DNA of 64,000 nucleotides from Marivibrio halodurans (lineage in GTDB: Bacteria; Pseudomonadota; Alphaproteobacteria; UBA8366; Aestuariispiraceae). Below are positions 46,072 to 57,323 of the stretch, piece after piece. Where the stretch lies: assembly GCF_017963645.1 (NCBI RefSeq), contig NZ_JAGMWN010000002.1:186001-250000 (forward strand), given 5' to 3'. Position 1 is the first letter of the stretch. Every line of letters begins with the position of its first letter. The notes beneath the pieces were generated by a model that saw only the letters and a program-made list of their open reading frames with translations, did no database searches and was not told the DNA's origin. Both the position numbers and the translations under genes were made by a program.

Positions 46072-46863
46072 CTATTCCGGGGCCACCTGCTCACGGGCGG
46101 CCTCTTCGCGAAACGGCTCCACCACCAATTGGACGCGGTCGCTGGAGAAACGGGTGACGCCATATTCGATGGCGCGGCCGTCGGCATCGACATCGACATT
46201 CTCGGTCTGGAGCAGGGGGCGGCCCACCGGTTGCTTGAGGAGCGCCGCTTCCTCCCGCGTCGGCATGCGTGCCGTGACGCGGGTCGATAGGCGGCGATAA
46301 TCCGCCACGCCCATCCGCCGCAGCGATTCCGTCAGCGACCGGCACTCCCGATAATGCGCGTCGATGCCGGCGAACCGTTTGGCCGGCAGGTAATGCAGGC
46401 CGAGGGCGAGGGGGCGGTCGTCCGCCTCGCTCATCGCCTCGATCACGATGATGGGGGCGCCGACGCGCAGATTCAGGTGGCGCGCGATGACGCGGTCGGC
46501 CACCGCCTGCTCCGCCCGCAGCAGCCGATGGCCGGGCAGACGGTTCGCCCCCGCGATATTCTGGGAGAAGCGGGTGCGGTTGCCGATCGGATAGTCGATC
46601 GTCTCCTCCTGGACGAAGGTGCCGCGCCCCTGCTCGATCCGGACGGCGCCCCGCTCCGCCAAGGCCGCCATGGCGCGGCGCAGCGTGTGGCGGTTGACCG
46701 CGAAGCGCCGGGCCAGCGCCGCCTCCGCCGGCAGGCGTTCGCCGCGCGGATAGGTGCCGGCGCGGATATCCTCCATCAGCGTTTCGGCGATCCGGCTCCA
46801 TGTCGTGCGGCCGGTCCCCATGCCGTCCCTATCGTCCGGCGGTGTCATGCGGCGGGTCTCCAT
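46072..46863 (-). CDS. phnF: PhnF-type GntR/UTRA regulator of phosphonate genes
   Basis: A 263-residue HutC-subfamily repressor. The winged helix reads RIAETLMEDIRAGTYPRGERLPAEAALARRFAVNRHTLRRAMAALAERGAVRIEQGRGTFV. The UTRA domain runs to VQLVVEPFREE and has GRPLLQTENVDVDADGRAIEYGVTRFSSDRVQ. MTPPDDRDG at 46848 is a better-spaced alternative start (GGAG upstream). It is divergent from the phnG operon across a region with a matching operator. The effector is unknown. Confidence 0.9.
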   Translation of the reverse strand: METRRMTPPDDRDGMGTGRTTWSRIAETLMEDIRAGTYPRGERLPAEAALARRFAVNRHTLRRAMAALAERGAVRIEQGRGTFVQEETIDYPIGNRTRFSQNIAGANRLPGHRLLRAEQAVADRVIARHLNLRVGAPIIVIEAMSEADDRPLALGLHYLPAKRFAGIDAHYRECRSLTESLRRMGVADYRRLSTRVTARMPTREEAALLKQPVGRPLLQTENVDVDADGRAIEYGVTRFSSDRVQLVVEPFREEAAREQVAPE

Positions 46864-46995: not shown

Positions 46996-47508
46996 ATGAC
47001 GACACCCTCTTCCACGAATGCCGGTTCCCCCACCGGGGAGGATGCTCCGCGCAAGCAATGGATGGCCGTCCTGGCCAAGGCCCCCGCCAAGCGGGTCGAG
47101 GCCTTGGCCACCGCCTATCTGGAGGGGGTGGCGGATGCGGTCGCGCCGCGCTTCCGCGTGCTGCGGCGGCCGGAAACCGGCCTCGTCATGGTGCGCGGGC
47201 GGGCGGGCGGTACCGGCGATCCCTTCAATATGGGGGAGATGACGGTCACGCGCTGCACCGTGGTGCTGGAGCGGGACGGCGCGGCGGCGGTCGCGGGCCA
47301 TGCCTATATCGCCGGGCGGGACCGGGCGCATGCGACGCTGGCCGCGAAGCTCGACGCCCTGCTGCAAACCGACGGCCATCATGGCCCGCTGATGGCCGCG
47401 CTGGTCGAGCCCCTGGCGCGCGAGGCGGAGGAACGCCGCGCCGCCCGGCGCCGCCGGGTGGGGGCGACCAAGGTTGATTTCTTCACCCTCGTCCGTGGGG
47501 AGGATTGA
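46996..47508 (+). CDS. phnG: Carbon-phosphorus lyase core subunit PhnG
   Basis: A 170-residue subunit of the PhnGHIJ core complex; with PhnI it helps exchange adenine of ATP for the phosphonate. Characteristic segments are RKQWMAVLAKAPAKRVEALATAYL, PETGLVMVRGRAGGTGDPFNMGEMTVTRCTVVL and HAYIAGRDRAHATLAAKLDALLQ. It is the first gene of the plus-strand phn operon, three bases before phnH. Confidence 0.95.
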   Translation: MTTPSSTNAGSPTGEDAPRKQWMAVLAKAPAKRVEALATAYLEGVADAVAPRFRVLRRPETGLVMVRGRAGGTGDPFNMGEMTVTRCTVVLERDGAAAVAGHAYIAGRDRAHATLAAKLDALLQTDGHHGPLMAALVEPLAREAEERRAARRRRVGATKVDFFTLVRGED

Positions 47509-47511
47509 GCG

Positions 47512-48126
47512 ATGGTAAGCGCCGCGATGATCGAGCCGCCGGCGGAAGGCTTCAGCGACCCCGTCCTGGATGCGGCCGAATGCTTTCGCGTCATCCTGGG
47601 CGCGTTGGCGACGCCGGGGACGCCGATGCGCCTGCCCCGCACCGTCGCCGCGCCCGACGCGTTGGGGCCCGAAGGGGCGGCGCTGGCGCTGACCCTGATG
47701 GATTTCGAGACGCGGGTCTGGCTGCATCCGGATATCGCGACCGAGGCGGTCGTCCGGTATCTCGCCTTCCATACCGGCGTCGTCCGCGCGTCGGAGGCGG
47801 GGGCGGCGGATTTCGCGGTGATGCCGATTGGCGCGGCAGTTTCGGTGCTGCCGACCCTCGTGGTCGGCACGGCGGATTATCCCGACCGTGCCGCCAGCGC
47901 GATCCTGCTGACAGATGGCATGGACGGCGGCGCGCCCGCGCGGTTGAGCGGGCCGGGCCTCGCCGCGCCGGTCGATTTCGCGCCGGCGGGGGCGACCTCC
48001 GCGCTCTGGTCGGTGTTGCGGGAGAATGCGGCGCGTTTCCCGCTGGGGGTCGATTGCTTCTTCGCCGGCGGCGGCGCCGTCGCCGGCCTGCCGCGCAGCA
48101 CGCGGATCGAGAGCGGGGAGGGCTGA
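47512..48126 (+). CDS. phnH: Carbon-phosphorus lyase core subunit PhnH
   Basis: A 204-residue core subunit with a PLP-transferase-like fold but no cofactor lysine role in the family. Typical elements are DAAECFRVILGALATPGTPMRLPRTV, ALTLMDFETRVWLHPD, FHTGVVRASEAGAADFAVMP and the C-terminal NAARFPLGVDCFFAGGGAVAGLPRSTRIE. It starts three bases after phnG. Confidence 0.95.
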   Translation: MVSAAMIEPPAEGFSDPVLDAAECFRVILGALATPGTPMRLPRTVAAPDALGPEGAALALTLMDFETRVWLHPDIATEAVVRYLAFHTGVVRASEAGAADFAVMPIGAAVSVLPTLVVGTADYPDRAASAILLTDGMDGGAPARLSGPGLAAPVDFAPAGATSALWSVLRENAARFPLGVDCFFAGGGAVAGLPRSTRIESGEG

Positions 48127-48130
48127 GCCC

Positions 48131-49279
48131 ATGTATGTCGCGGTGAAGGGTGGCGAACGCGCGATCGAGAACGCGCACGGCCTGCTGGCCGAGGACCGGC
48201 GCGGCGATACCGAGGTGCCGGAACTGACGCCCGATCAGATCCGGGAGCAGATGAAGCTCGCCGTCGACCGGGTGATGACGGAAGGCTCGCTCTATGACCG
48301 GGAACTGGCGGCATTGGCGCTCAAGCAGGCGCGCGGCGATCAGATCGAGGCGATCTTCCTGCTGCGCGCCTATCGCACGACGCTGCCGCGTTTCGCCGCT
48401 TCGCGCCCCGTCGATACCGGGGCGATGGTGGTGGAGCGCCGTGTTTCCGCCACCTTCAAGGATCTGCCCGGCGGCCAGATCCTGGGGCCGACCTTCGACT
48501 ATACCCATCGACTGATCGACCACGACCTTGCCGCGCCCCATCGACCCCGGCCGTGCGCGGAGGCGGCGCCGGTGGACGAGGCGATGCCGCGCGTCCTCGA
48601 CCTGCTGGCGTGCGAGGGGCTGATCGAGCCGGCCGACCCCGCCGACCCCGCCGCGCCCGATCCCCCCGACGCATCCGGCGCGGCGGATCGGGAGGACGGG
48701 CAACCCGCCGACATCACGCGCGAGCCGCCGCGGTTCCCGGCCGGCCGCGACGCGCGGCTCCAGACCCTGGCGCGCGGGGACGAGGGGTTCCTGCTGGCAC
48801 TGGCCTATTCCAGTCAGCGCGGCTATGGCCGCACCCATCCCTTCGCCGGGGAAATCCGGCTGGGCACGGTGCCGGTGTGCATCGCACCGGAGGAGTTGGG
48901 CTTCGAGATCGAGATCGGGGAGATCGAACTGACCGAATGCCAGATGGTGAACCAGTTCACCGGCGGCGCCGACCGCGCGCCCTGCTTCACGCGCGGCTAT
49001 GGCCTCGCCTTCGGTCATGGCGAGCGCAAGGCGATGTCGATGGCGCTGGTCGATCGGTCGTTGCGCGCCGACGCGTTCGAGGAGACGCGCGACGCCCCCG
49101 TGCAGGACGAGGAATTCGTCCTCTCCCATTGCGACAATGTGCAGGCGACGGGTTTCGTGGAGCATCTGAAGTTGCCCCACTATGTCGATTTCCAGTCGGA
49201 GCTTGAATTGCTGCGCCGCCTGCGGCGCGAGCATGACGCGCGGAACGGCCCGGACGACAAGGCGGAGGCGGCGGAATGA
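48131..49279 (+). CDS. phnI: Carbon-phosphorus lyase core subunit PhnI (nucleosidase)
   Basis: A 382-residue catalytic subunit that, with PhnG, PhnH and PhnL, forms alpha-D-ribose 1-methylphosphonate 5-triphosphate. It opens MYVAVKGGERAIENAHGLLAEDRRGD, which sets the start four bases after the phnH stop. Conserved blocks are LTPDQIREQMKLAVDRVMTEGSLYDRELAALALKQARGDQIEAIFLLRAYRTT, FKDLPGGQILGPTFDYTHRLID, YSSQRGYGRTHPFAGEIR and CQMVNQFTGGADRAPCFTRGYGLAFGHGERKAMSMALVDR. Confidence 0.95.
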   Translation: MYVAVKGGERAIENAHGLLAEDRRGDTEVPELTPDQIREQMKLAVDRVMTEGSLYDRELAALALKQARGDQIEAIFLLRAYRTTLPRFAASRPVDTGAMVVERRVSATFKDLPGGQILGPTFDYTHRLIDHDLAAPHRPRPCAEAAPVDEAMPRVLDLLACEGLIEPADPADPAAPDPPDASGAADREDGQPADITREPPRFPAGRDARLQTLARGDEGFLLALAYSSQRGYGRTHPFAGEIRLGTVPVCIAPEELGFEIEIGEIELTECQMVNQFTGGADRAPCFTRGYGLAFGHGERKAMSMALVDRSLRADAFEETRDAPVQDEEFVLSHCDNVQATGFVEHLKLPHYVDFQSELELLRRLRREHDARNGPDDKAEAAE

Positions 49280-50172
49280 ACATCCCGGCGGCAATGGTCG
49301 AGCCCGCGGGCGGGCGCGACGATACCTATAACTTCGCCTATCTGGACGAACAGACGAAGCGCATGATCCGCCGCGCGCTGCTGAAGGCGGTGGCGGTACC
49401 CGGCTATCAGGTGCCCTTCGCCGGGCGGGAAATGCCGATGCCCTATGGTTGGGGCACGGGCGGGGTGCAGGTGACGGCCGCGATCCTGAAGGCCGACGAT
49501 GTGCTGAAGGTGATCGACCAGGGGGCGGACGACACGACCAACGCGGTCTCCATCCGCAAGTTCTTCCGCCGCACGGCCGGCGTCGCGACGACGGAACGAA
49601 CGGAGGCGGCGAATGTCATCCAGACGCGTCACCGTATCCCGGAGACGCCGCTGCGCGCCGGGCAGATCCTGGTCTATCAGGTGCCGATCCCGGAGCCGCT
49701 GCGCTTCCTGGAGCCGCGCGAGACCGAGACCCGCCGCATGCACGCCCATGCCGATTACGGGCTGATGCATGTGAAGCTTTACGAGGATATCGCGCGGCAC
49801 GGCCATATCGCGACCACCTATGCCTATCCGGTGAAGGTGGCGGGGCGTTATGTCATGGACCCGTCGCCGACGCCTAAGTTCGACAATCCCAAAATGTCGG
49901 AATGCCCGGCGCTACAGCTTTTCGGCGCGGGGCGGGAGAAGCGGATCTATGCCATCCCGCCCTTCACGACGGTCGAGAGCCTGGATTTCGAGGATCATTC
50001 CTTCACCGTGCAGCGATGGGACCGGCCATGCGCGCTCTGCGGCGCGCGGGACAGCTTCCTGGACGAGGTGGTGACGGACGATCGCGGCGGGCGGATGTTC
50101 GTCTGTTCCGATACCGATTACTGCGCCCGGCGCCGCGACGCCGGCCACGGCCCGGAGGAGGAGGAGGCATGA
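49276..50172 (+). CDS. phnJ: Radical SAM C-P lyase PhnJ
   Basis: A 298-residue enzyme cleaving the carbon-phosphorus bond of ribose phosphonate with SAM and a [4Fe-4S] cluster. Cys252, Cys255 and Cys277 form the CX2CX21C ligand set (PCALCGARDSF and FVCSDTDYC). The Gly-rich YGWGTGGVQVTAAI near the N-terminus lies where the glycyl-radical residue is expected. Its ATG overlaps the phnI stop and its own stop overlaps phnK, so the core genes are tightly coupled. Confidence 0.96.
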   Translation: MNIPAAMVEPAGGRDDTYNFAYLDEQTKRMIRRALLKAVAVPGYQVPFAGREMPMPYGWGTGGVQVTAAILKADDVLKVIDQGADDTTNAVSIRKFFRRTAGVATTERTEAANVIQTRHRIPETPLRAGQILVYQVPIPEPLRFLEPRETETRRMHAHADYGLMHVKLYEDIARHGHIATTYAYPVKVAGRYVMDPSPTPKFDNPKMSECPALQLFGAGREKRIYAIPPFTTVESLDFEDHSFTVQRWDRPCALCGARDSFLDEVVTDDRGGRMFVCSDTDYCARRRDAGHGPEEEEA

Positions 50173-50999
50173 GCGTGGAAGCGACGGTGACGCCGGAAGA
50201 GGCCCCGCCCGTGATGGCGGGCGACGACACGCCCCCGATCCTGGCGGTCGAGGGGCTGGCCAAGCAGTATGGTGGGCGGATCGGCTGCGCCGATGTCGGC
50301 TTCCGCCTCTGGCCGGGCGAGGTGCTGGGCATCGTGGGGGAGAGTGGCTCGGGCAAGACCACCGTGCTCAATTGCGCCGCCGGCCGCCTCGCGCCGACGG
50401 CGGGGCGCGTGCTCTATAGCGCGGCTGACGGCGCCACCCATGATGTCCACGCGATCGCGGAGACCGACCGCCGCCGCCTGATGCGTACCGATTGGGCCTT
50501 CGTCCATCAGCATGCGCGCGACGGCCTGCGCATGGGGGTGAGCGCCGGGGCGAATGTGGGGGAACCCCTGATGGCGCTCGGCGCGCGGCATTATGGCCGC
50601 ATCCGTACCGCCGCCGGCGATTGGCTGACCCGCACGGAGATCGACGCGGATCGGATCGACGACCGGCCGACGACCTTCTCCGGCGGCATGCAGCAGCGCT
50701 TGCAGGTCGCCCGCGCGCTGGTGGCGGAACCGCGCCTCGTCTTCATGGACGAGCCGACCGGCGGCCTCGACGTGTCGGTTCAGGCGCGGCTGCTCGATCT
50801 CTTGCGGGGGTTGGTGACGGAACTCGGCCTCGCCGCCGTGATCGTGACGCATGATCTGGCGGTGGCGCGACTGCTTTCCCACCGGCTTCTGGTGATGCGG
50901 CGCGGCCGGGTGGTGGAAACCGGCCTGACCGATCAGGTGCTGGATGATCCGCAGCATCCCTATACCCAACTTCTCGTCGCCTCGGTGTTGCAGCCATGA
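50169..50999 (+). CDS. phnK: C-P lyase ATP-binding subunit PhnK
   Basis: A 276-residue ABC-type ATPase that binds the PhnGHIJ complex. It has Walker A GESGSGKTT, signature TFSGGMQQRLQVARALV, Walker B LVFMDEPTGGLDVSVQ and a switch His in VTHDLAVARLL. The YTQLLVASVLQP C-terminus is of oligopeptide-ATPase type. The start overlaps the phnJ stop (ATGA). The first 25 residues are a low-similarity extension. Confidence 0.94.
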   Translation: MSVEATVTPEEAPPVMAGDDTPPILAVEGLAKQYGGRIGCADVGFRLWPGEVLGIVGESGSGKTTVLNCAAGRLAPTAGRVLYSAADGATHDVHAIAETDRRRLMRTDWAFVHQHARDGLRMGVSAGANVGEPLMALGARHYGRIRTAAGDWLTRTEIDADRIDDRPTTFSGGMQQRLQVARALVAEPRLVFMDEPTGGLDVSVQARLLDLLRGLVTELGLAAVIVTHDLAVARLLSHRLLVMRRGRVVETGLTDQVLDDPQHPYTQLLVASVLQP

Positions 51000-51700
51000 C
51001 GGACCGCCTTCGTATCGAGAATGTCGGCAAGCGTTTCACGCTCCATAATCAGGGGGGCGTGGCGATTCCGGTCCTGCGCGGTGTATCGCTCGCCGTCGCG
51101 GGGGGCGAGTGCGTGGCGCTGACCGGCCCCTCCGGCGCGGGGAAGAGCACGCTGATGCGCATGATCCACGCGAACTACCGCACCGACGAGGGGTCGATCC
51201 GCCTGCGCGCGGATGGGCAGGCCCCGTGGATCGAGCTTGCCGGGGCCGACCCGCGCGCCGTGCTGGCCGTGCGGCGTGGGACGCTCGGCTATGTCAGCCA
51301 GTTCCTGCGCGTCGTGCCGCGCGTGCCCGCGCGCGAGGTGGTGGCGGAGCCCCTGATCGCGCTCGGCCGGCCGGTCGAGGCGGCGCGCGCGGCGGCGGAG
51401 GCTATGCTGGCGCGTCTCAACCTGCCGGAGGCGCTGTGGCGGCTACCGCCCGCCACCTTCTCCGGCGGGGAGCAGCAGCGCGTCAATATCGCGCGCGGCT
51501 TCATCCACCCCTATCCGGTGTTGTTGCTGGACGAGCCGACGGCCTCCCTCGACGGGGCGAACCGCGCGGTCGTGCTCGACCTGATCGGGGAGGCGAAGGC
51601 GCGGGGTGCCGCGATCGTCGGTATCTTCCACGATGCGCAAGCGCGCGCGGCGGTCTGCGACCGGGAATTCGAGATCGCGCCCCTTGGCGCGGTGGCGTAG
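50996..51700 (+). CDS. phnL: C-P lyase ATP-binding subunit PhnL
   Basis: A 234-residue ABC ATPase needed with PhnGHI for ribose-phosphonate formation. Walker A is GPSGAGKSTLMRMIHANYRTDEGSI, signature FSGGEQQRVNIARGFIHPYPVLLLDEPTASLDGANR. The block LGYVSQFLRVVPRVPAREVVAEPL is typical of PhnL. Its ATG overlaps the phnK stop. Confidence 0.95.
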   Translation: MTDRLRIENVGKRFTLHNQGGVAIPVLRGVSLAVAGGECVALTGPSGAGKSTLMRMIHANYRTDEGSIRLRADGQAPWIELAGADPRAVLAVRRGTLGYVSQFLRVVPRVPAREVVAEPLIALGRPVEAARAAAEAMLARLNLPEALWRLPPATFSGGEQQRVNIARGFIHPYPVLLLDEPTASLDGANRAVVLDLIGEAKARGAAIVGIFHDAQARAAVCDREFEIAPLGAVA

Positions 51701-51731: not shown

Positions 51732-52922
51732 ATGCGCCGGCGCGACGGATTGACGGCACGGGAAGGAACGATGGGCGCGGAACGCGGCGAGACGGTACTG
51801 ACCAATGCGCGGCTGGTCCTGACGGACGAGGTGGTGACGGGCACCATCGCCCTTTCCGGCGGGCGGATCGCGGCCATCGACCAGGGGGCGTCCGCCCTGC
51901 CGGGCGCCATCGATTGCGTGGGCGATCTGGTCATGCCGGGGTTGGTCGAGCTTCATACCGACAATCTGGAAAAACATATGCTGCCCCGGCCGCGCGCGCA
52001 TTGGCCGGCCGTGCCGGCCGTGGTGGCGCATGATTCGCAGGTGATCGGCGCGGGCATCACGACGGTCTTCGATGCGCTCTCCGTCGGCGCGGTGGTGGAT
52101 AACGAGGTTCGCATCAAGCGCATCGGCGAGATGCTGGACGCGATCGAGGCCGCGCGGGCGGACGATCTGACCAAGGCGGAGCATCTGCTGCATCTGCGCT
52201 GCGAGATCAGCTATCCGCACTTGCAGGATGCGCTCGCCGGGCTGATCGACAAACCGGGCGTGCGGCTGATTTCGGTCATGGATCACACGCCGGGCCAGCG
52301 CCAATTCACCGACGAGCGGACCTATCGCGATTACTACGCCGCGAAATTCGGCCTGTCCCCGGCGGAGATGGATGCCTTCATCGTCGATCGACGGCGCGAT
52401 CAGGAACGCCACGCGGCGGCGAACCGCGCCCATGTCGTCCAGGCGGCGCGGGATCGTGGCCTATCGCTCGCCAGTCACGACGACGCGACGGCGGCGCATG
52501 TGGCCGAGGCCGTGGCCGACGGCATGACGCTGGCCGAATTCCCGACGACGGTGGAATCCGCCGCCGCCTCCCATGCGGAGGGGCTGGCCGTCATGATGGG
52601 CGCGCCGAACGTCGTGCGCGGCGGCTCGCACTCCGGCAATGTCTCGGCGCTCGAACTGGCCCGGCGCGGCACGTTGGACGCGATCTCCAGCGACTATGCC
52701 CCGGCGGCCCTGCTGCACGCCGCCTTCCTTTTGGCGGAGCAGGTGGAGGCGATCACCCTGCCCCGCGCGGTGGCGATGGTGACGGTGACGCCCGCGCGCG
52801 CCGCCGGCCTTGCCGACCGCGGCGATCTGGCGGTGGGCCAGCGCGCCGACATCATCCGTGTGCGCGCGGCGAGCCACCCGGTGCTGCGCGGTGTCTGGCG
52901 GGAGGGCGCGCGGGTTGCCTGA
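51732..52922 (+). CDS. phnM: Ribose 1-methylphosphonate 5-triphosphate diphosphatase PhnM
   Basis: A 396-residue amidohydrolase that removes pyrophosphate before C-P cleavage. It has DLVMPGLVELHTDNLEKHMLPRP (metal-binding His/Asp), VVAHDSQVIGAGITTVFDALS, HLRCEISYP, ISVMDHTPGQRQFTDERTY, LASHDDATAAHV and IALSGGRIAAIDQG at the N-terminus. GAGGAG five bases upstream supports this ATG. Another ATG at 51771 is possible. Confidence 0.94.
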   Translation: MRRRDGLTAREGTMGAERGETVLTNARLVLTDEVVTGTIALSGGRIAAIDQGASALPGAIDCVGDLVMPGLVELHTDNLEKHMLPRPRAHWPAVPAVVAHDSQVIGAGITTVFDALSVGAVVDNEVRIKRIGEMLDAIEAARADDLTKAEHLLHLRCEISYPHLQDALAGLIDKPGVRLISVMDHTPGQRQFTDERTYRDYYAAKFGLSPAEMDAFIVDRRRDQERHAAANRAHVVQAARDRGLSLASHDDATAAHVAEAVADGMTLAEFPTTVESAAASHAEGLAVMMGAPNVVRGGSHSGNVSALELARRGTLDAISSDYAPAALLHAAFLLAEQVEAITLPRAVAMVTVTPARAAGLADRGDLAVGQRADIIRVRAASHPVLRGVWREGARVA

Positions 52923-53532
52923 ACGGGCGCCTTCGCCTTTTCCGGGCCGCCTTGTCCTCGTCGTCGGGCCGAGCGGCGCGGGCAAGGATTCCGTCATGCG
53001 GGCGGCCCGCGACGGCCTGCCGGACGGCGAACCAGACGCTGGACGGGACATTCGCTTCGTCACCCGCTGGATCACCCGCCCGGCGGAGGACGAGGCCGCA
53101 ACCGTGGGCGAGGCGCATCGGCCCGTCGATCCCGAGACGTTCGAGCGGCTGGCCGGGGAAGGGGCCTTCGCCCTGCATTGGGCGGCGCACGGGCTGCGTT
53201 ACGGCCTTCCGGTGACGATCGAGGGGTGGCTGGCCGAGGGCGCGGTGGTGGTGGCCAATGTCTCCCGCACGGTGATCGATCGCGCGCGGGCCCGTTATCC
53301 GGGGCTGGTCGTCCTGCATATCACCGCCGCCCCGGCGGTGCGCGCCCGGCGCCTCGCCGCGCGCGGCCGGGAGGGCGAGGCGGAGGTCGCCGCGCGCCTC
53401 GCCCGCGCGGATCTGGCCGTGCCGGAGGGGGGCGACGTGGTGATGGTCGCGAATGACGGCGATCTGGCGGCGGCGGCGGCGCGCGTGCGCGACCTGCTGC
53501 TCACCCTCGTCCGAGAAGCGGGTAGGAGGTAA
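52915..53532 (+). CDS. phnN: Ribose 1,5-bisphosphate phosphokinase PhnN
   Basis: A 205-residue guanylate-kinase-like P-loop enzyme making PRPP from ribose 1,5-bisphosphate. Walker A is VGPSGAGKDSVMRAARDGL; RFVTRWITRPAEDE and FALHWAAHGLRYGLP follow. I infer a TTG start overlapping the phnM stop, with GGGAGGG nine bases upstream, because no ATG fits. Its last 32 bases overlap the 3' end of the convergent DUF1045 gene. Confidence 0.9.
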   Translation: MPERAPSPFPGRLVLVVGPSGAGKDSVMRAARDGLPDGEPDAGRDIRFVTRWITRPAEDEAATVGEAHRPVDPETFERLAGEGAFALHWAAHGLRYGLPVTIEGWLAEGAVVVANVSRTVIDRARARYPGLVVLHITAAPAVRARRLAARGREGEAEVAARLARADLAVPEGGDVVMVANDGDLAAAAARVRDLLLTLVREAGRR

Positions 53533-54181
53533 GCCGCATGAACGGCCGCCCGCCGCCCGGGTCCCCGAACAACGTCAGCGCGTCGAGCGTGAAGGGCGCG
53601 GCCAGCACCGGCGCCAGCGCCGGTTTGAGCGCGGCGGCCACCGCCCGCCGTGCCTCCCCGTCGAGCGGGCCGGTCAGCGTCAGATGGAACCGGAACGCCT
53701 CCATCACATAGGGATAGCCCCAGCGGTCGAGCAATTCCTCCTGCCGGGCGGTCAGGCCGGCGGCGCGGCGGCGTTGCCTCTCCGCCTCGCTCGCCTCGGC
53801 GCGGAAATCGTCCAGTTCGACGACGCAAGAGTCCGCGACCGGCCGGATCGGTCCGTCATCCGGAACGGGCACGAGGGCGAGGAAACGGCCGATCTCCTTG
53901 AGCGCCAGCCCCTCGGTTCGGGCGGGGGCGAGACGGGTGGCCAGTGCCTCCACCGCCGCTTCGATCGCTTCCCGCCCACCGCATCCGTCGGCGAGCGCGA
54001 AGGGCGGCTTCAACGTGCCGTGGAAGCCATAGCGCGCGGGCGCCTCGGTCGCTGCCGCCACCACCGCCGGGTTGAGCCCGATCGCCGGGTCCGGGGCGCC
54101 GCCCAGCCAGCCGGCGCCGAAACGATCCAAGGGGCTGCCCGCCGGCGGGGCGTAATAGATGGCGAAACGCGCGAATCTCAT
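53501..54181 (-). CDS. DUF1045 phosphonate-locus protein with 2H-phosphoesterase motifs
   Basis: A 226-residue protein of the DUF1045 family, regularly found beside phn genes. It begins MRFARFAIYYAPPAGSPLDRFGAGWLG. Two HxT motifs, His54-Gly-Thr56 (GFHGTLKPPF) and His166-Leu-Thr168 (FRFHLTLTGPL), match the paired catalytic histidines of 2H phosphoesterases, enzymes that open cyclic phosphates. No phnP gene is seen in this locus. PhnP is the phosphodiesterase that opens 5-phosphoribosyl 1,2-cyclic phosphate after C-P cleavage. This protein may fill that role (inference). It is convergent with phnN. Confidence 0.88.
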   Translation of the reverse strand: MRFARFAIYYAPPAGSPLDRFGAGWLGGAPDPAIGLNPAVVAAATEAPARYGFHGTLKPPFALADGCGGREAIEAAVEALATRLAPARTEGLALKEIGRFLALVPVPDDGPIRPVADSCVVELDDFRAEASEAERQRRRAAGLTARQEELLDRWGYPYVMEAFRFHLTLTGPLDGEARRAVAAALKPALAPVLAAPFTLDALTLFGDPGGGRPFMRLTSYPLLGRG

Positions 54182-54235: not shown

Positions 54236-56056
54236 TTACCCGAAGAAGGGCGCATAGAATACCAGCACCGCGCCCCCCGCCAGCGCCAGCAGGGCGAGGA
54301 GCGGGCGATCCCGGAAATGAACCGTCGCCCAACTGGTGGAGGCGAGGCCGACCGCGATCTTGGCGAAGGCGAAGAGGGCGGGGAAGACCCCGTCCTCCGG
54401 CCGGATCAGCGCCGGGTTCGCGACCATCGCCAGCGGCACCAGATAGAGCCCGAGGCCGAGCCGCATGGCATATCCCGCGACCCGCAGCCAGGGGGCGTCC
54501 GCCATGCCCGCGGCGATGAAGACCGTGCCGCAGACCGGCGGCGTGATGGTGGAGAGCAGCGCGTACCAGAAGACGAAGAGATGCACGGTCAGCGCCGGCA
54601 GGCCCAGCTCCTGAAGCGCCGGGCCGGCGACGGAGACGCAGATGACATAGGCCGCCGTCGTCGGCACCTCCATCCCCAGGATCAGGCAGGCAAGCGCGGT
54701 CAGCAGCAGCGCGATCCAAAGCTCCCCGCCGGAAAGCGCCAGGATCGCGGAGGTGACCTTCACCCCCAGCCCGGTCATGTTGAGGACGCCGATCACCAGC
54801 CCCGCGCAGATGATGATCGCCGCGATGGTCGCGATCTGACGGGCGGCGTCGATCGTGGCGGCCGATAGGCGGGCCAGCGCCGGCCGGATCGCCAGGCTGC
54901 CCGTGCGGTCGGTGACCAGCAGGGCGGTCGCCGCGAAGGCGGCGATGGCGGCGGCGTATTGCGGGGTCTTGCCGCTGGCGAATAGGATCGCGAGCAGCAC
55001 CGCGAAGGGAATCGCGAAGAAGGGAAGTGTCGCCAGGACGAGCCGCATGGAAGGCAGTTCCTCCGCCGCCATGCCGCGCAGATTGCCGCGCCGGGCAAAA
55101 AGCTCCACCCCGAACCAGGCGGCGACGAAGAACAGGATCGCCGGCAATACCGCCGCCATCATGATGGTGACGTAGGAGACGCCCAGCAGTTCCACCATGA
55201 CGAAGGCGCCCGCGCCCATCAGCGGTGGCATGATCTGCCCGCCGGAGGAGGCGACCGCCTCCACCGCCGCGGCGAGGGCCGGCGGATAGCCGAGGCGCTT
55301 CATCGCCGGCAGCGTCACCGCCCCTGTCGAGGCGACATTGGCCGAGGCCGAACCGCTGATCGAGCCGAACAGCGCCGATGCCAGGATCGAGACCTTGGCC
55401 GCGCCCGCCCGCAGACGACCCGCCAGCTTCGCCGCCAGCGCCATGAAGCCGGTTCCGCCCTCGCCCGCGCCGATGACGGCGCCCAGGATCACGAAGACCG
55501 CCACCACGTTCATGGATATCCCGGTGAGCGGCCCCCACAGGCCGCCCTCCGCCACGACCAGCGTGCCGAGGAAGCTGTCGACCGGCATGCCCGCATGGCC
55601 GAAACGCCCGGGTAGATACTGACCCAGCAGGCCATAGGCGAGGGCGACCACCGCGATGGCGGGCAGGGCCAGCTTCACCATGCGGCGCGCCGCCTCCAGC
55701 ACGACCAGGATCAACAGGATCGCGATGATCCGCTGATCGAGCCCCTGGAGACTGCCATATTGGTCGCCCAGCATGTCCTGGTTCAGCACGACCCAAAGAC
55801 AGCCACCGGCCCCCGCCAGGAACAACAGCCAGTCCACCGCCCCACGCCAGCCCCGCCACGACGCCGGCCGGTCCCCCGCCATCACGAAGATCCAGGGCAG
55901 TACCAGCAGCAGGTGGATCGGCCGGCTGATCAGGTTCGGCATCAGCCCGGCGAAGGTCAGCCAGAGGTGAAAGCCGACGGATGCGGCGGCCAGCAGCAGG
56001 GCCACCGGATGCGCGCGCCATCCGTCATCCACGCGGGGACTGGTCCACAAGGACAT
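54236..56056 (-). CDS. Fused TRAP transporter permease (DctQ-DctM type)
   Basis: A 606-residue inner-membrane permease with about 16-18 helices. The N-terminal DctQ-like part is short and joined to a DctM-like domain containing AVIGAGEGGTGFMALAAKLAGRLRAGAAKVSILASALFGSISGSASANVASTGAVTLPAMKRLGYPPALAAAVEAVASSGGQIMPPLMGAGAFVMVELLGVSYVTIMMAAV, the signature of TRAP fused 4TM/12TM proteins. The second half ends with LLALLALAGGAVLVFYAPFFG. It is co-oriented with the TAXI binding protein upstream, its expected partner. The substrate is unspecified. Its place beside the phn operon, which has no phnCDE here, raises organophosphonate or a related anion. Confidence 0.92.
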   Translation of the reverse strand: MSLWTSPRVDDGWRAHPVALLLAAASVGFHLWLTFAGLMPNLISRPIHLLLVLPWIFVMAGDRPASWRGWRGAVDWLLFLAGAGGCLWVVLNQDMLGDQYGSLQGLDQRIIAILLILVVLEAARRMVKLALPAIAVVALAYGLLGQYLPGRFGHAGMPVDSFLGTLVVAEGGLWGPLTGISMNVVAVFVILGAVIGAGEGGTGFMALAAKLAGRLRAGAAKVSILASALFGSISGSASANVASTGAVTLPAMKRLGYPPALAAAVEAVASSGGQIMPPLMGAGAFVMVELLGVSYVTIMMAAVLPAILFFVAAWFGVELFARRGNLRGMAAEELPSMRLVLATLPFFAIPFAVLLAILFASGKTPQYAAAIAAFAATALLVTDRTGSLAIRPALARLSAATIDAARQIATIAAIIICAGLVIGVLNMTGLGVKVTSAILALSGGELWIALLLTALACLILGMEVPTTAAYVICVSVAGPALQELGLPALTVHLFVFWYALLSTITPPVCGTVFIAAGMADAPWLRVAGYAMRLGLGLYLVPLAMVANPALIRPEDGVFPALFAFAKIAVGLASTSWATVHFRDRPLLALLALAGGAVLVFYAPFFG

Positions 56057-56199
56057 GGGGGATCGCTTTCAAAGCAGGCCCCCACCCGCCGGGGCGGGAT
56101 GGGGGCCAGGGTCGTTTCGCGATGCCGGCCCCTCCCCTTGCCCGGTTCCGCCGATATGTCGCGCGGCGGCCGGAGGAGGAGGGTCGGTCCGTGCGCGAT

Positions 56200-57168
56200 T
56201 TACTTCAAGGCGTCGGGAATGGCGATCCCGGCTTCCTCGTAATAGCGCAGCGCGCCCGGATGCAGCGGACCCGCCATGGTCGCCAGCATGGCCGGATCGA
56301 CACCGGCCCACCAGCGCGCGACCTCCGCCATGCTCTCCTTGCTCTCCCAATAGGATTTGGTGAGCTGATAGGCGGTCTCGTCGTCCATCTTGGTGGTGGT
56401 GTAGGCGCCGACCGGAAGGGAGGTGGTCAGCGTATCCGCCTCCACGCCCGGATAGGTGCCGCCCGGGATGACGAGGCGCGTGCGCCCGGTCTCCGCCACC
56501 TGCTCCTCGGTCATGGACAGCAGGGCGATATCGACGCTGGCGGCGGCCTCCATCACGTTCGGCGCGGGATAGGACCCGGCCGTGGCGAAACCGTCGACCT
56601 GGCCGTTCTGCAGGGCGGGGACGGCGGAGTTGAGCTCGACATCGACGAGATCGGGGCTGACGCCGAATTTCTCGAAATTCGCCTCCGCCTCGCGCGCGCC
56701 GAAGCTGCCCTTGCCGATGATGAAGCCCTTGCCGTCGAGGTCGGCGAAGGTGCCGATGCCCGCATCGGCGCGGACGACGTAATGCATGGTCAGCGACGGG
56801 ATGACGAACAGCGCGCGGATATCGCCATAGTCCTTCCCGTCCTCGAACATCTTCGTGTTGCCCTTGGCCAGCTTGATCAGCGCCGGCGGGGTGGTGAAGA
56901 CATAGGCCCCCTCGCGCAGGGCGGCTTCCTTGACGTTCTGGACGGAGCCCTGGCTCTCCTCGACCGTTACCTGGATGGCGCCGTCGGTCGCCTTCTGCAC
57001 GGCCTCTGCCACCTGAACCGCCATCTGGTAATAGGACGAGGTGGATTTCGCCGATTTATAGGTGACGCGCGTCTGCGCCGCGGCCGGATCGCCGGCGAGA
57101 CCGGTCGCCGCGATCGCGGCCGCCGCGCCGAGTGTCGCGAGGAATTTCGTGATGGTGCGTCGAGCCAT
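56200..57168 (-). CDS. TAXI-family TRAP transporter solute-binding protein
   Basis: A 322-residue periplasmic receptor for the fused TRAP permease, 143 bases downstream on the same strand. The signal peptide is RRTITKFLATLGAAAAIAATGLAGDPAAAQ. The TAXI features are TYKSAKSTSSYYQMAVQVAEAVQK, LDGKGFIIGKGSFGAREAEANFEKFG, ALQNGQVDGFATAGSYPAPNVMEAA and WWAGVDPAMLATMAGPLHPGALRYYEEAGI. The start is set by the signal and GGGAGGA upstream. The ligand is unknown; known TAXI ligands include glutamate and other carboxylates. Confidence 0.93.
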   Translation of the reverse strand: MARRTITKFLATLGAAAAIAATGLAGDPAAAQTRVTYKSAKSTSSYYQMAVQVAEAVQKATDGAIQVTVEESQGSVQNVKEAALREGAYVFTTPPALIKLAKGNTKMFEDGKDYGDIRALFVIPSLTMHYVVRADAGIGTFADLDGKGFIIGKGSFGAREAEANFEKFGVSPDLVDVELNSAVPALQNGQVDGFATAGSYPAPNVMEAAASVDIALLSMTEEQVAETGRTRLVIPGGTYPGVEADTLTTSLPVGAYTTTKMDDETAYQLTKSYWESKESMAEVARWWAGVDPAMLATMAGPLHPGALRYYEEAGIAIPDALK

Positions 57169-57323
57169 GGCTCGGTTCCTCCCATTCTCGTGGCATTGCC
57201 CCTTCGGACCTTGGGGACGGATCGTGGCACTTACCCCGTGGTGCGGCAACGGGCAAGGGCGGCAAGACACGGGATGGCGCCCATGTTCGAACGGCGCGGC
57301 AACGTCCCGGCCGGCATGACGGG

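Follow-up and report, generated by a model that had tools for sequence, protein, structure and literature searches.

A DUF1045 protein predicted to take the place of PhnP in an alphaproteobacterial C-P lyase cluster

In the account of the C-P lyase pathway given in PMC3463581, PhnP converts 5-phosphoribosyl 1,2-cyclic phosphate (PRcP) to ribose 1,5-bisphosphate, and PhnN converts ribose 1,5-bisphosphate to PRPP. It is through the opening of PRcP that phosphonate phosphorus re-enters central metabolism, as when glyphosate is broken down or methane is released from methylphosphonate. Some phn operons lack phnP; PMC10574752 reports a survey, which it attributes to the 2009 paper on the structure of PhnP, where phnP was present in 27 of 54 operons with phnM, and where the 16 without phnP carried rcsF, which is a 2H gene. 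The role of PhnP has been assigned to RcsF in a marine fosmid (PMC3840354), and DUF1045 itself is named for this role in PMC8235418, which cites a 2014 review. In addition, a DUF1045 protein appears in a table of the P-stress response (PMC10132767), and second copies of phnM outside the operon are mentioned in PMC9381506. The gene order phnM, rcsF, phnNL (PMC5649143) matches the order phnM-DUF1045-phnN-phnL that we find in many DUF1045 loci of the present set, and for this reason we infer that the RcsF of those papers is DUF1045. The PhnP role of DUF1045/RcsF is already in print, in work of 2009-2014, and is not new here; no assay of any DUF1045 protein was found in the open-licence literature searched.

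In this work we analyzed the phn cluster of Marivibrio halodurans and its DUF1045 gene, and surveyed the distribution of PhnP, DUF1045 and PhnM. The survey adds fresh support to the published proposal; a decayed PhnP beside an intact DUF1045 gene, and a PhnM-DUF1045 pair in genomes without C-P lyase, may be new parts of the picture.

The phn cluster and its DUF1045 protein

The window, that is, the whole stretch of 64,000 nucleotides analyzed, carries the genes listed in Table 1. The products of phnF, G, H, K, L, M and N all score above the NCBIfam cut-offs, PhnI and PhnJ were identified by Pfam matches, and tblastn found no PhnP in the window at E<=1e-6, which bears out the description of the locus in the first-pass annotation as phnGHIJKLMN without phnP. 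Neither phnD nor phnE gave a match in the window. The interval given for phnN is the longest reading of its frame, and homology begins near 52945; its 3' end overlaps the convergent DUF1045 gene by 32 bp. In Paracoccus denitrificans PD1222, too, DUF1045 is next to phnN, and the convergent order is repeated in three relatives of M. halodurans from its own family (G089, G320 and G179). Genes of a TAXI-type TRAP transporter lie on the same strand as DUF1045 and end 54 bp before it; a link between the two was discarded, given that the transporter is not beside DUF1045 in those three genomes.

Table 1. Coordinates of the features discussed (window positions unless a locus is named)
Feature	Position	Strand	Evidence or remark
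phnF, GntR-type regulator	46072..46863	(-), divergent	TIGR02325 266.4 bits, cut-off 156.8
phnG	46996..47508	(+)	TIGR03293 172.9 bits, cut-off 89
phnH	47512..48126	(+)	TIGR03292 145.8 bits, cut-off 91.5
phnI	48131..49279	(+)	PF05861 E 1.2e-161 (own genome, same place); start chosen by eye
phnJ, C-P lyase subunit	49276..50172	(+)	PF06007 E 1.0e-147 (own genome, same place)
phnK	50169..50999	(+)	TIGR02323 378.8 bits, cut-off 302.85; start chosen by eye
phnL	50996..51700	(+)	TIGR02324 324.9 bits, cut-off 256.3
phnM, ribose 1-methylphosphonate 5-triphosphate diphosphatase	51732..52922	(+)	TIGR02318 475.4 bits, cut-off 390.55
phnN, ribose 1,5-bisphosphokinase	52810..53532	(+)	TIGR02322 192.6 bits, cut-off 156
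DUF1045 gene	53501..54181	(-)	226 aa; predicted 2H phosphoesterase fold; H54xT56 and H166xT168
TAXI-type TRAP transporter genes	54236-57270	(-)	
DUF1045 match, uncultured Ruegeria	L040:2838-3506		two stops in the given frame
PhnP relative, gammaproteobacterial MAG	L091:5519-6253		245 aa
Calcineurin-like phosphoesterase gene	L252:5161-6015		directly upstream of phnG in G135
Divergent DUF1045 and Gate-match gene	L254:5728-7294		overlapping ends
Divergent DUF1045 and Gate-match gene	L255:5511-7080		overlapping ends
Divergent DUF1045 and Gate-match gene	L256:5669-7235		overlapping ends

The DUF1045 gene is a single open frame with an ATG start. Its product matches the DUF1045 profile (PF06299) with 182.9 bits against a Pfam cut-off of 24.3 and, more weakly, the LigT_PEase profile (26.2 bits, cut-off 23.3), and it gives no match to the PhnP profile TIGR03307 at E<=0.001, which places it in the DUF1045 family and outside the PhnP family. 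With the DUF1045/RcsF proteins of published phn clusters it shares the Pfam family, the place beside phnM/phnN and the lack of phnP; it differs from the corresponding NCBIfam group (TIGR03223, "putative phosphonate metabolism protein") in that its match of 230.5 bits, which is near full length, stays below the cut-off of 248.95 and leaves it outside that group as defined. It is an ordinary member of the known group, and the role put forward for that group is very likely correct.

The two HxT motifs pointed out in the first-pass annotation, His54/Thr56 and His166/Thr168, are present in the translated frame and in all of the 161 rows of a DUF1045 alignment, some of which are the same gene fetched twice, if serine is admitted at the last position: every row has H54, T56 and H166, and the residue at 168 is T in 158 rows and S in the other 3. 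Given this near-total conservation the motifs are not due to chance, and two HxT/S motifs are what is expected of a 2H protein. R5, Y51, P60, R127, G155 and Y156 are also invariant, and K58 varies in two rows. Sequences broken or cut by a contig end (L040, L073, L142 and L277) were excluded from this alignment; the first of them is the interrupted Ruegeria match of Table 1.

The fold was predicted with AlphaFold2 from an input of 68 sequences, the window protein together with 67 out of 78 intact ones from loci L033-L112 (pLDDT 95.8, pTM 0.91). In the Foldseek search with this model, rows 1-32 are of 2H type save three mitoribosomal chains (rows 8, 14 and 19), and include the Arabidopsis CPDase (1jh6/1fsi/1jh7); the 15 PDB rows at E<=0.001 comprise 2H-type proteins and two mitoribosomal chains. 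The VIA comparison gave Z scores of 15.3 for YjcG (2d4g), 13.9 for CPDase (1jh6) and 13.3 for LigT (5ldm). Here we take Usb1 and YjcG to be 2H proteins. The best rows of both searches being 2H proteins, the model has a 2H fold; a search by sequence for solved relatives found none at E<=10. A close functional parallel is the Arabidopsis CPDase, which aligns with the model over 170 residues (rmsd 3.5) and opens a ribose 1,2-cyclic phosphate, as predicted for DUF1045. In contrast, the two proteins are only 12% identical, and the substrate of CPDase is an ADP-ribose cyclic phosphate, not the 5-phosphoribosyl compound.

Distribution of PhnP and DUF1045 among C-P lyase genomes

The first-pass annotation allowed for a phnP elsewhere in the genome. 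None is found over the family cut-off: the best match scores 61 bits, where 272 are required, and was rejected as a hidden PhnP, given that it fits another metallo-beta-lactamase family better (NF038231, 207 bits, vs 60 for PhnP). Among 387 alphaproteobacterial genomes drawn from the class, none has PhnP over the cut-off (top score 102 bits). PhnJ is present in 74 of these genomes, and DUF1045 is over its cut-off in 72 of the 74 and in 17 of the 313 without PhnJ; two further genomes with DUF1045 matches below the cut-off (G382 and G098) were neither counted as DUF1045 nor placed in the control pool.

One could suppose that the step of PhnP is carried out by an unlinked protein of the metallo-beta-lactamase family, DUF1045 being accessory or regulatory. 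Weak matches to the PhnP model do exist, two of them in the M. halodurans genome and others in 11 of 14 control genomes (that of E. coli over the cut-off), and matches at E<=1e-20 occur in 88 of the 387 class-draw genomes. Nevertheless, the own-genome match fits another family better, and matches at E<=1e-20 are equally common without PhnJ (72/313) and with it (16/74), for which reason these general matches were rejected as hidden PhnPs. We regard this explanation as highly improbable.

A second draw, from the phylum Pseudomonadota, comprised 377 genomes, of which 96 have PhnJ over the cut-off; 13 of these also belong to the class draw. Out of the 83 others, 80 were tested for DUF1045 and PhnP, three PhnJ-bearing alphaproteobacteria (G705, G707 and G709) being omitted. 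The 50 alphaproteobacteria tested all have DUF1045 and none has PhnP over the cut-off, whereas the 30 genomes from outside the class divide into 24 with PhnP, four with DUF1045, two with neither and none with both. In no surveyed genome were both over their cut-offs. The anticorrelation that the first-pass annotation had proposed to look for by a genome survey thus took the form of mutual exclusion, and the general co-occurrence that would have spoken against a replacement was not seen.

The positions of the genes were compared by coordinates. All 24 PhnP genes of the phylum draw lie 3.9-4.6 kb from PhnJ. DUF1045 lies at most 15 kb from PhnJ in 56 of 71 class-draw alphaproteobacteria, and in 13 of the other 15 the two are on different contigs; one genome (G349), whose PhnJ was absent from the table used, was left out of this count.

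In terms of distribution, DUF1045 takes the place of PhnP in C-P lyase genomes. No exception to the exclusion was seen over the cut-offs, but the number of evolutionary switches underlying it is small: with 48 rows in a PhnJ tree, two changes suffice to separate DUF1045 from PhnP, and four when either group is set against all rows. In this tree the non-alphaproteobacterial DUF1045 clusters of G566 and G625 group with an alphaproteobacterium, and on this ground whole phn clusters may have moved. Two members of one family differ, one having DUF1045 and the other PhnP (G561 and G655); G561 pairs with G562, both with long branches, in a region of the tree without a clear branching order, and the branch of G655 is very long.

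A few C-P lyase genomes have neither enzyme. Two from outside the Alphaproteobacteria (G662 and G665, clusters L251 and L250) have PhnJ and phnN and neither PhnP nor DUF1045; going by these, there is a third solution for the step of PhnP, or a broken pathway. In the class draw, G135 and G333 have PhnJ and no DUF1045. G135 has no PhnP or PhnN over the cut-off either, and in its cluster a gene for a calcineurin-like phosphoesterase precedes phnG (Table 1), whose product could be a third enzyme able to catalyse the step.

A separate check of 80 named loci around DUF1045 for a PhnP-like stretch found two. The one in L050 was set aside, as it belongs to the other metallo-beta-lactamase family mentioned above (227 bits, vs 62 for PhnP). 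The other, in a gammaproteobacterial MAG from outside the genome survey (L091), follows phnIJKLM, DUF1045 and phnN, and encodes a protein that, among the NCBIfam models, fits PhnP best, with a score of 117 bits that is under the cut-off. Compared with 20 of the 24 survey PhnPs, this protein is changed at 28 of 44 invariant columns, the H, H, D and H of the HxHxDH motif being replaced by G, G, G and R, and it retains three invariant Cys and two C-terminal His; the residues lost presumably form the catalytic metal site and the Cys kept the structural zinc site, as we take them from the PhnP structure. The adjoining DUF1045 has its HxT motifs. Because of the loss of HxHxDH and the changes at invariant columns, the PhnP of this single MAG, which is the sole close co-occurrence with DUF1045 found, looks dead from its sequence. 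A plasmid search with this protein returned 18 records; among the 15 listed, known by annotation alone, 13 are annotated as phnP and two are unannotated.

The mutual exclusion and the decayed PhnP point to PhnP's own substrate, and count against the idea that DUF1045 stands beside phn genes as a part of general phosphorus scavenging. The substrates that this idea supposes are documented for 2H enzymes (PMC5283653), and in three genomes of 1.4 Mb, two of them without PhnJ, a divergent DUF1045 overlaps the end of a gene matching Gate (nucleoside recognition), the scores being 28.6-32.1 bits where the cut-off is 29.6. We consider this explanation unlikely.

DUF1045 and PhnM in genomes without C-P lyase

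The 17 class-draw genomes that retain DUF1045 without PhnJ also lack PhnI (0/17), and PhnN is over the cut-off in none of them. One (G236) has a PhnN fragment at a contig end and for that reason may merely be cut. Since DUF1045 is present in genomes without PhnJ and PhnI, it is not tied to C-P lyase alone, and it is unlikely that PRcP from C-P lyase is its sole business everywhere.

PhnM was found at E<=1e-20 in 11 of these 17 genomes, over the cut-off in 8, and in none of 80 controls (Fisher p 1.2e-10), which were taken at random, and not matched for size, from the 294 class-draw genomes with neither PhnJ nor DUF1045; the count remains 0 among the 35 controls of at least 2.6 Mb. phnM adjoins DUF1045 in four loci (L258, L262, L265 and L266). 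In these loci, and in L281 and L285, all from genomes without PhnJ or PhnI, phnM stands with phnF, DUF1045 or phnCD and permeases, and in G107 it heads a phnD-phnC-permease-permease run. In Tropicimonas isoalkanivorans DSM 19548, where no PhnJ match was found, phnM, DUF1045 and phnN are together. Within one genus (G138 vs G219) dN/dS is about 0.14 for PhnM, 0.13 for DUF1045 and 0.19 for PhnF; PhnM and DUF1045 are under purifying selection there.

A PhnM tree was made with 9 of the 11 PhnMs of these genomes, G209 and G100 being left out because their PhnM is split, and with one more from locus L075, which comes from a MAG without PhnJ. Eight of the nine fall among operon PhnMs and keep all of the 15 conserved acidic and His positions examined; the ninth, from G131, groups with the second-copy PhnMs and has a change at one of these positions. 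Well supported branches, with long branches flagged, force at least four changes of the PhnJ-free label, which was equally clustered in 9 of 500 shuffles. The second PhnMs of eleven roseobacter-type loci (L051, L053, L063, L065, L077, L079, L085, L087, L093, L095 and L111) form a clade of their own. Neighbours common to several DUF1045 loci were sought in 28 that have no PhnJ in reach, some of them from genomes with PhnJ elsewhere; one apparently ABC-type group recurs in 5 loci, and the others, PhnM among them, occur in at most 3.

The persistence of PhnM and DUF1045 without C-P lyase exceeds what a role in C-P lyase metabolism explains. DUF1045 and PhnM might act on a ribose phosphate from outside C-P lyase, such as PRcP arising by the spontaneous breakdown of PRPP, and DUF1045 would serve C-P lyase only where it is present. 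The excess of PhnM over the controls, the absence of PhnI and of PhnN over the cut-off, the adjacency in four loci, the low dN/dS and the intact operon-type PhnMs speak for this proposal. Against it, six of the 17 genomes have no PhnM match, in the other seven with PhnM its gene lies on another contig than DUF1045 or at least 11 kb away from it, the genes could be remnants of loss, and the controls were not matched for genome size. As it stands we hold it to be rather unlikely. A related and tentative suggestion is that PhnM and DUF1045 make up a two-enzyme module for ribose-phosphate salvage or repair in Alphaproteobacteria without C-P lyase, with C-P lyase as one user and not the reason for the module; PhnM would remove diphosphate from a 5-triphosphoribosyl compound, and DUF1045 would open a ribose 1,2-cyclic phosphate.

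Proposed role of DUF1045

From the gene, its motifs and predicted fold, the absence of PhnP, the mutual exclusion and the decayed PhnP of one locus, we propose that DUF1045 is, in all probability, a 2H cyclic phosphodiesterase performing PhnP's step. According to this proposal PhnJ would release PRcP, whose ring the two HxT motifs of DUF1045 would open at the 2-oxygen; the product, ribose 1,5-bisphosphate, would then be phosphorylated to PRPP by PhnN, which is encoded next to DUF1045. The substrate, PRcP, and the bond broken are predicted; catalysis would need no metal, and the conserved R5, Y51, K58, R127 and Y156 would hold the substrate. 2H enzymes are described in the literature as opening ribose 1,2-cyclic phosphate to the 1-phosphate, and on published evidence, therefore, this fold opens the same ring and yields the kind of product that PhnN requires. 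PhnP and DUF1045 would share the reaction and the slot in the pathway; in contrast, PhnP (TIGR03307) belongs to the metallo-beta-lactamase family and has a metal site. The replacement of PhnP by DUF1045 put forward in the first-pass annotation is thus supported, as far as sequence and structural model go, by the agreement of the missing phnP, the position, the fold, the chemistry and the mutual exclusion.

If the proposal is right, a non-homologous enzyme fills a missing step in the Alphaproteobacteria, where PhnJ occurs in close to a fifth of the class draw and PhnP over the cut-off in none. The decayed PhnP beside an intact DUF1045 represents a natural test of such an exchange of enzymes. 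Where C-P lyase is absent, the PhnM-DUF1045 pair suggests a further source of ribose cyclic phosphates.
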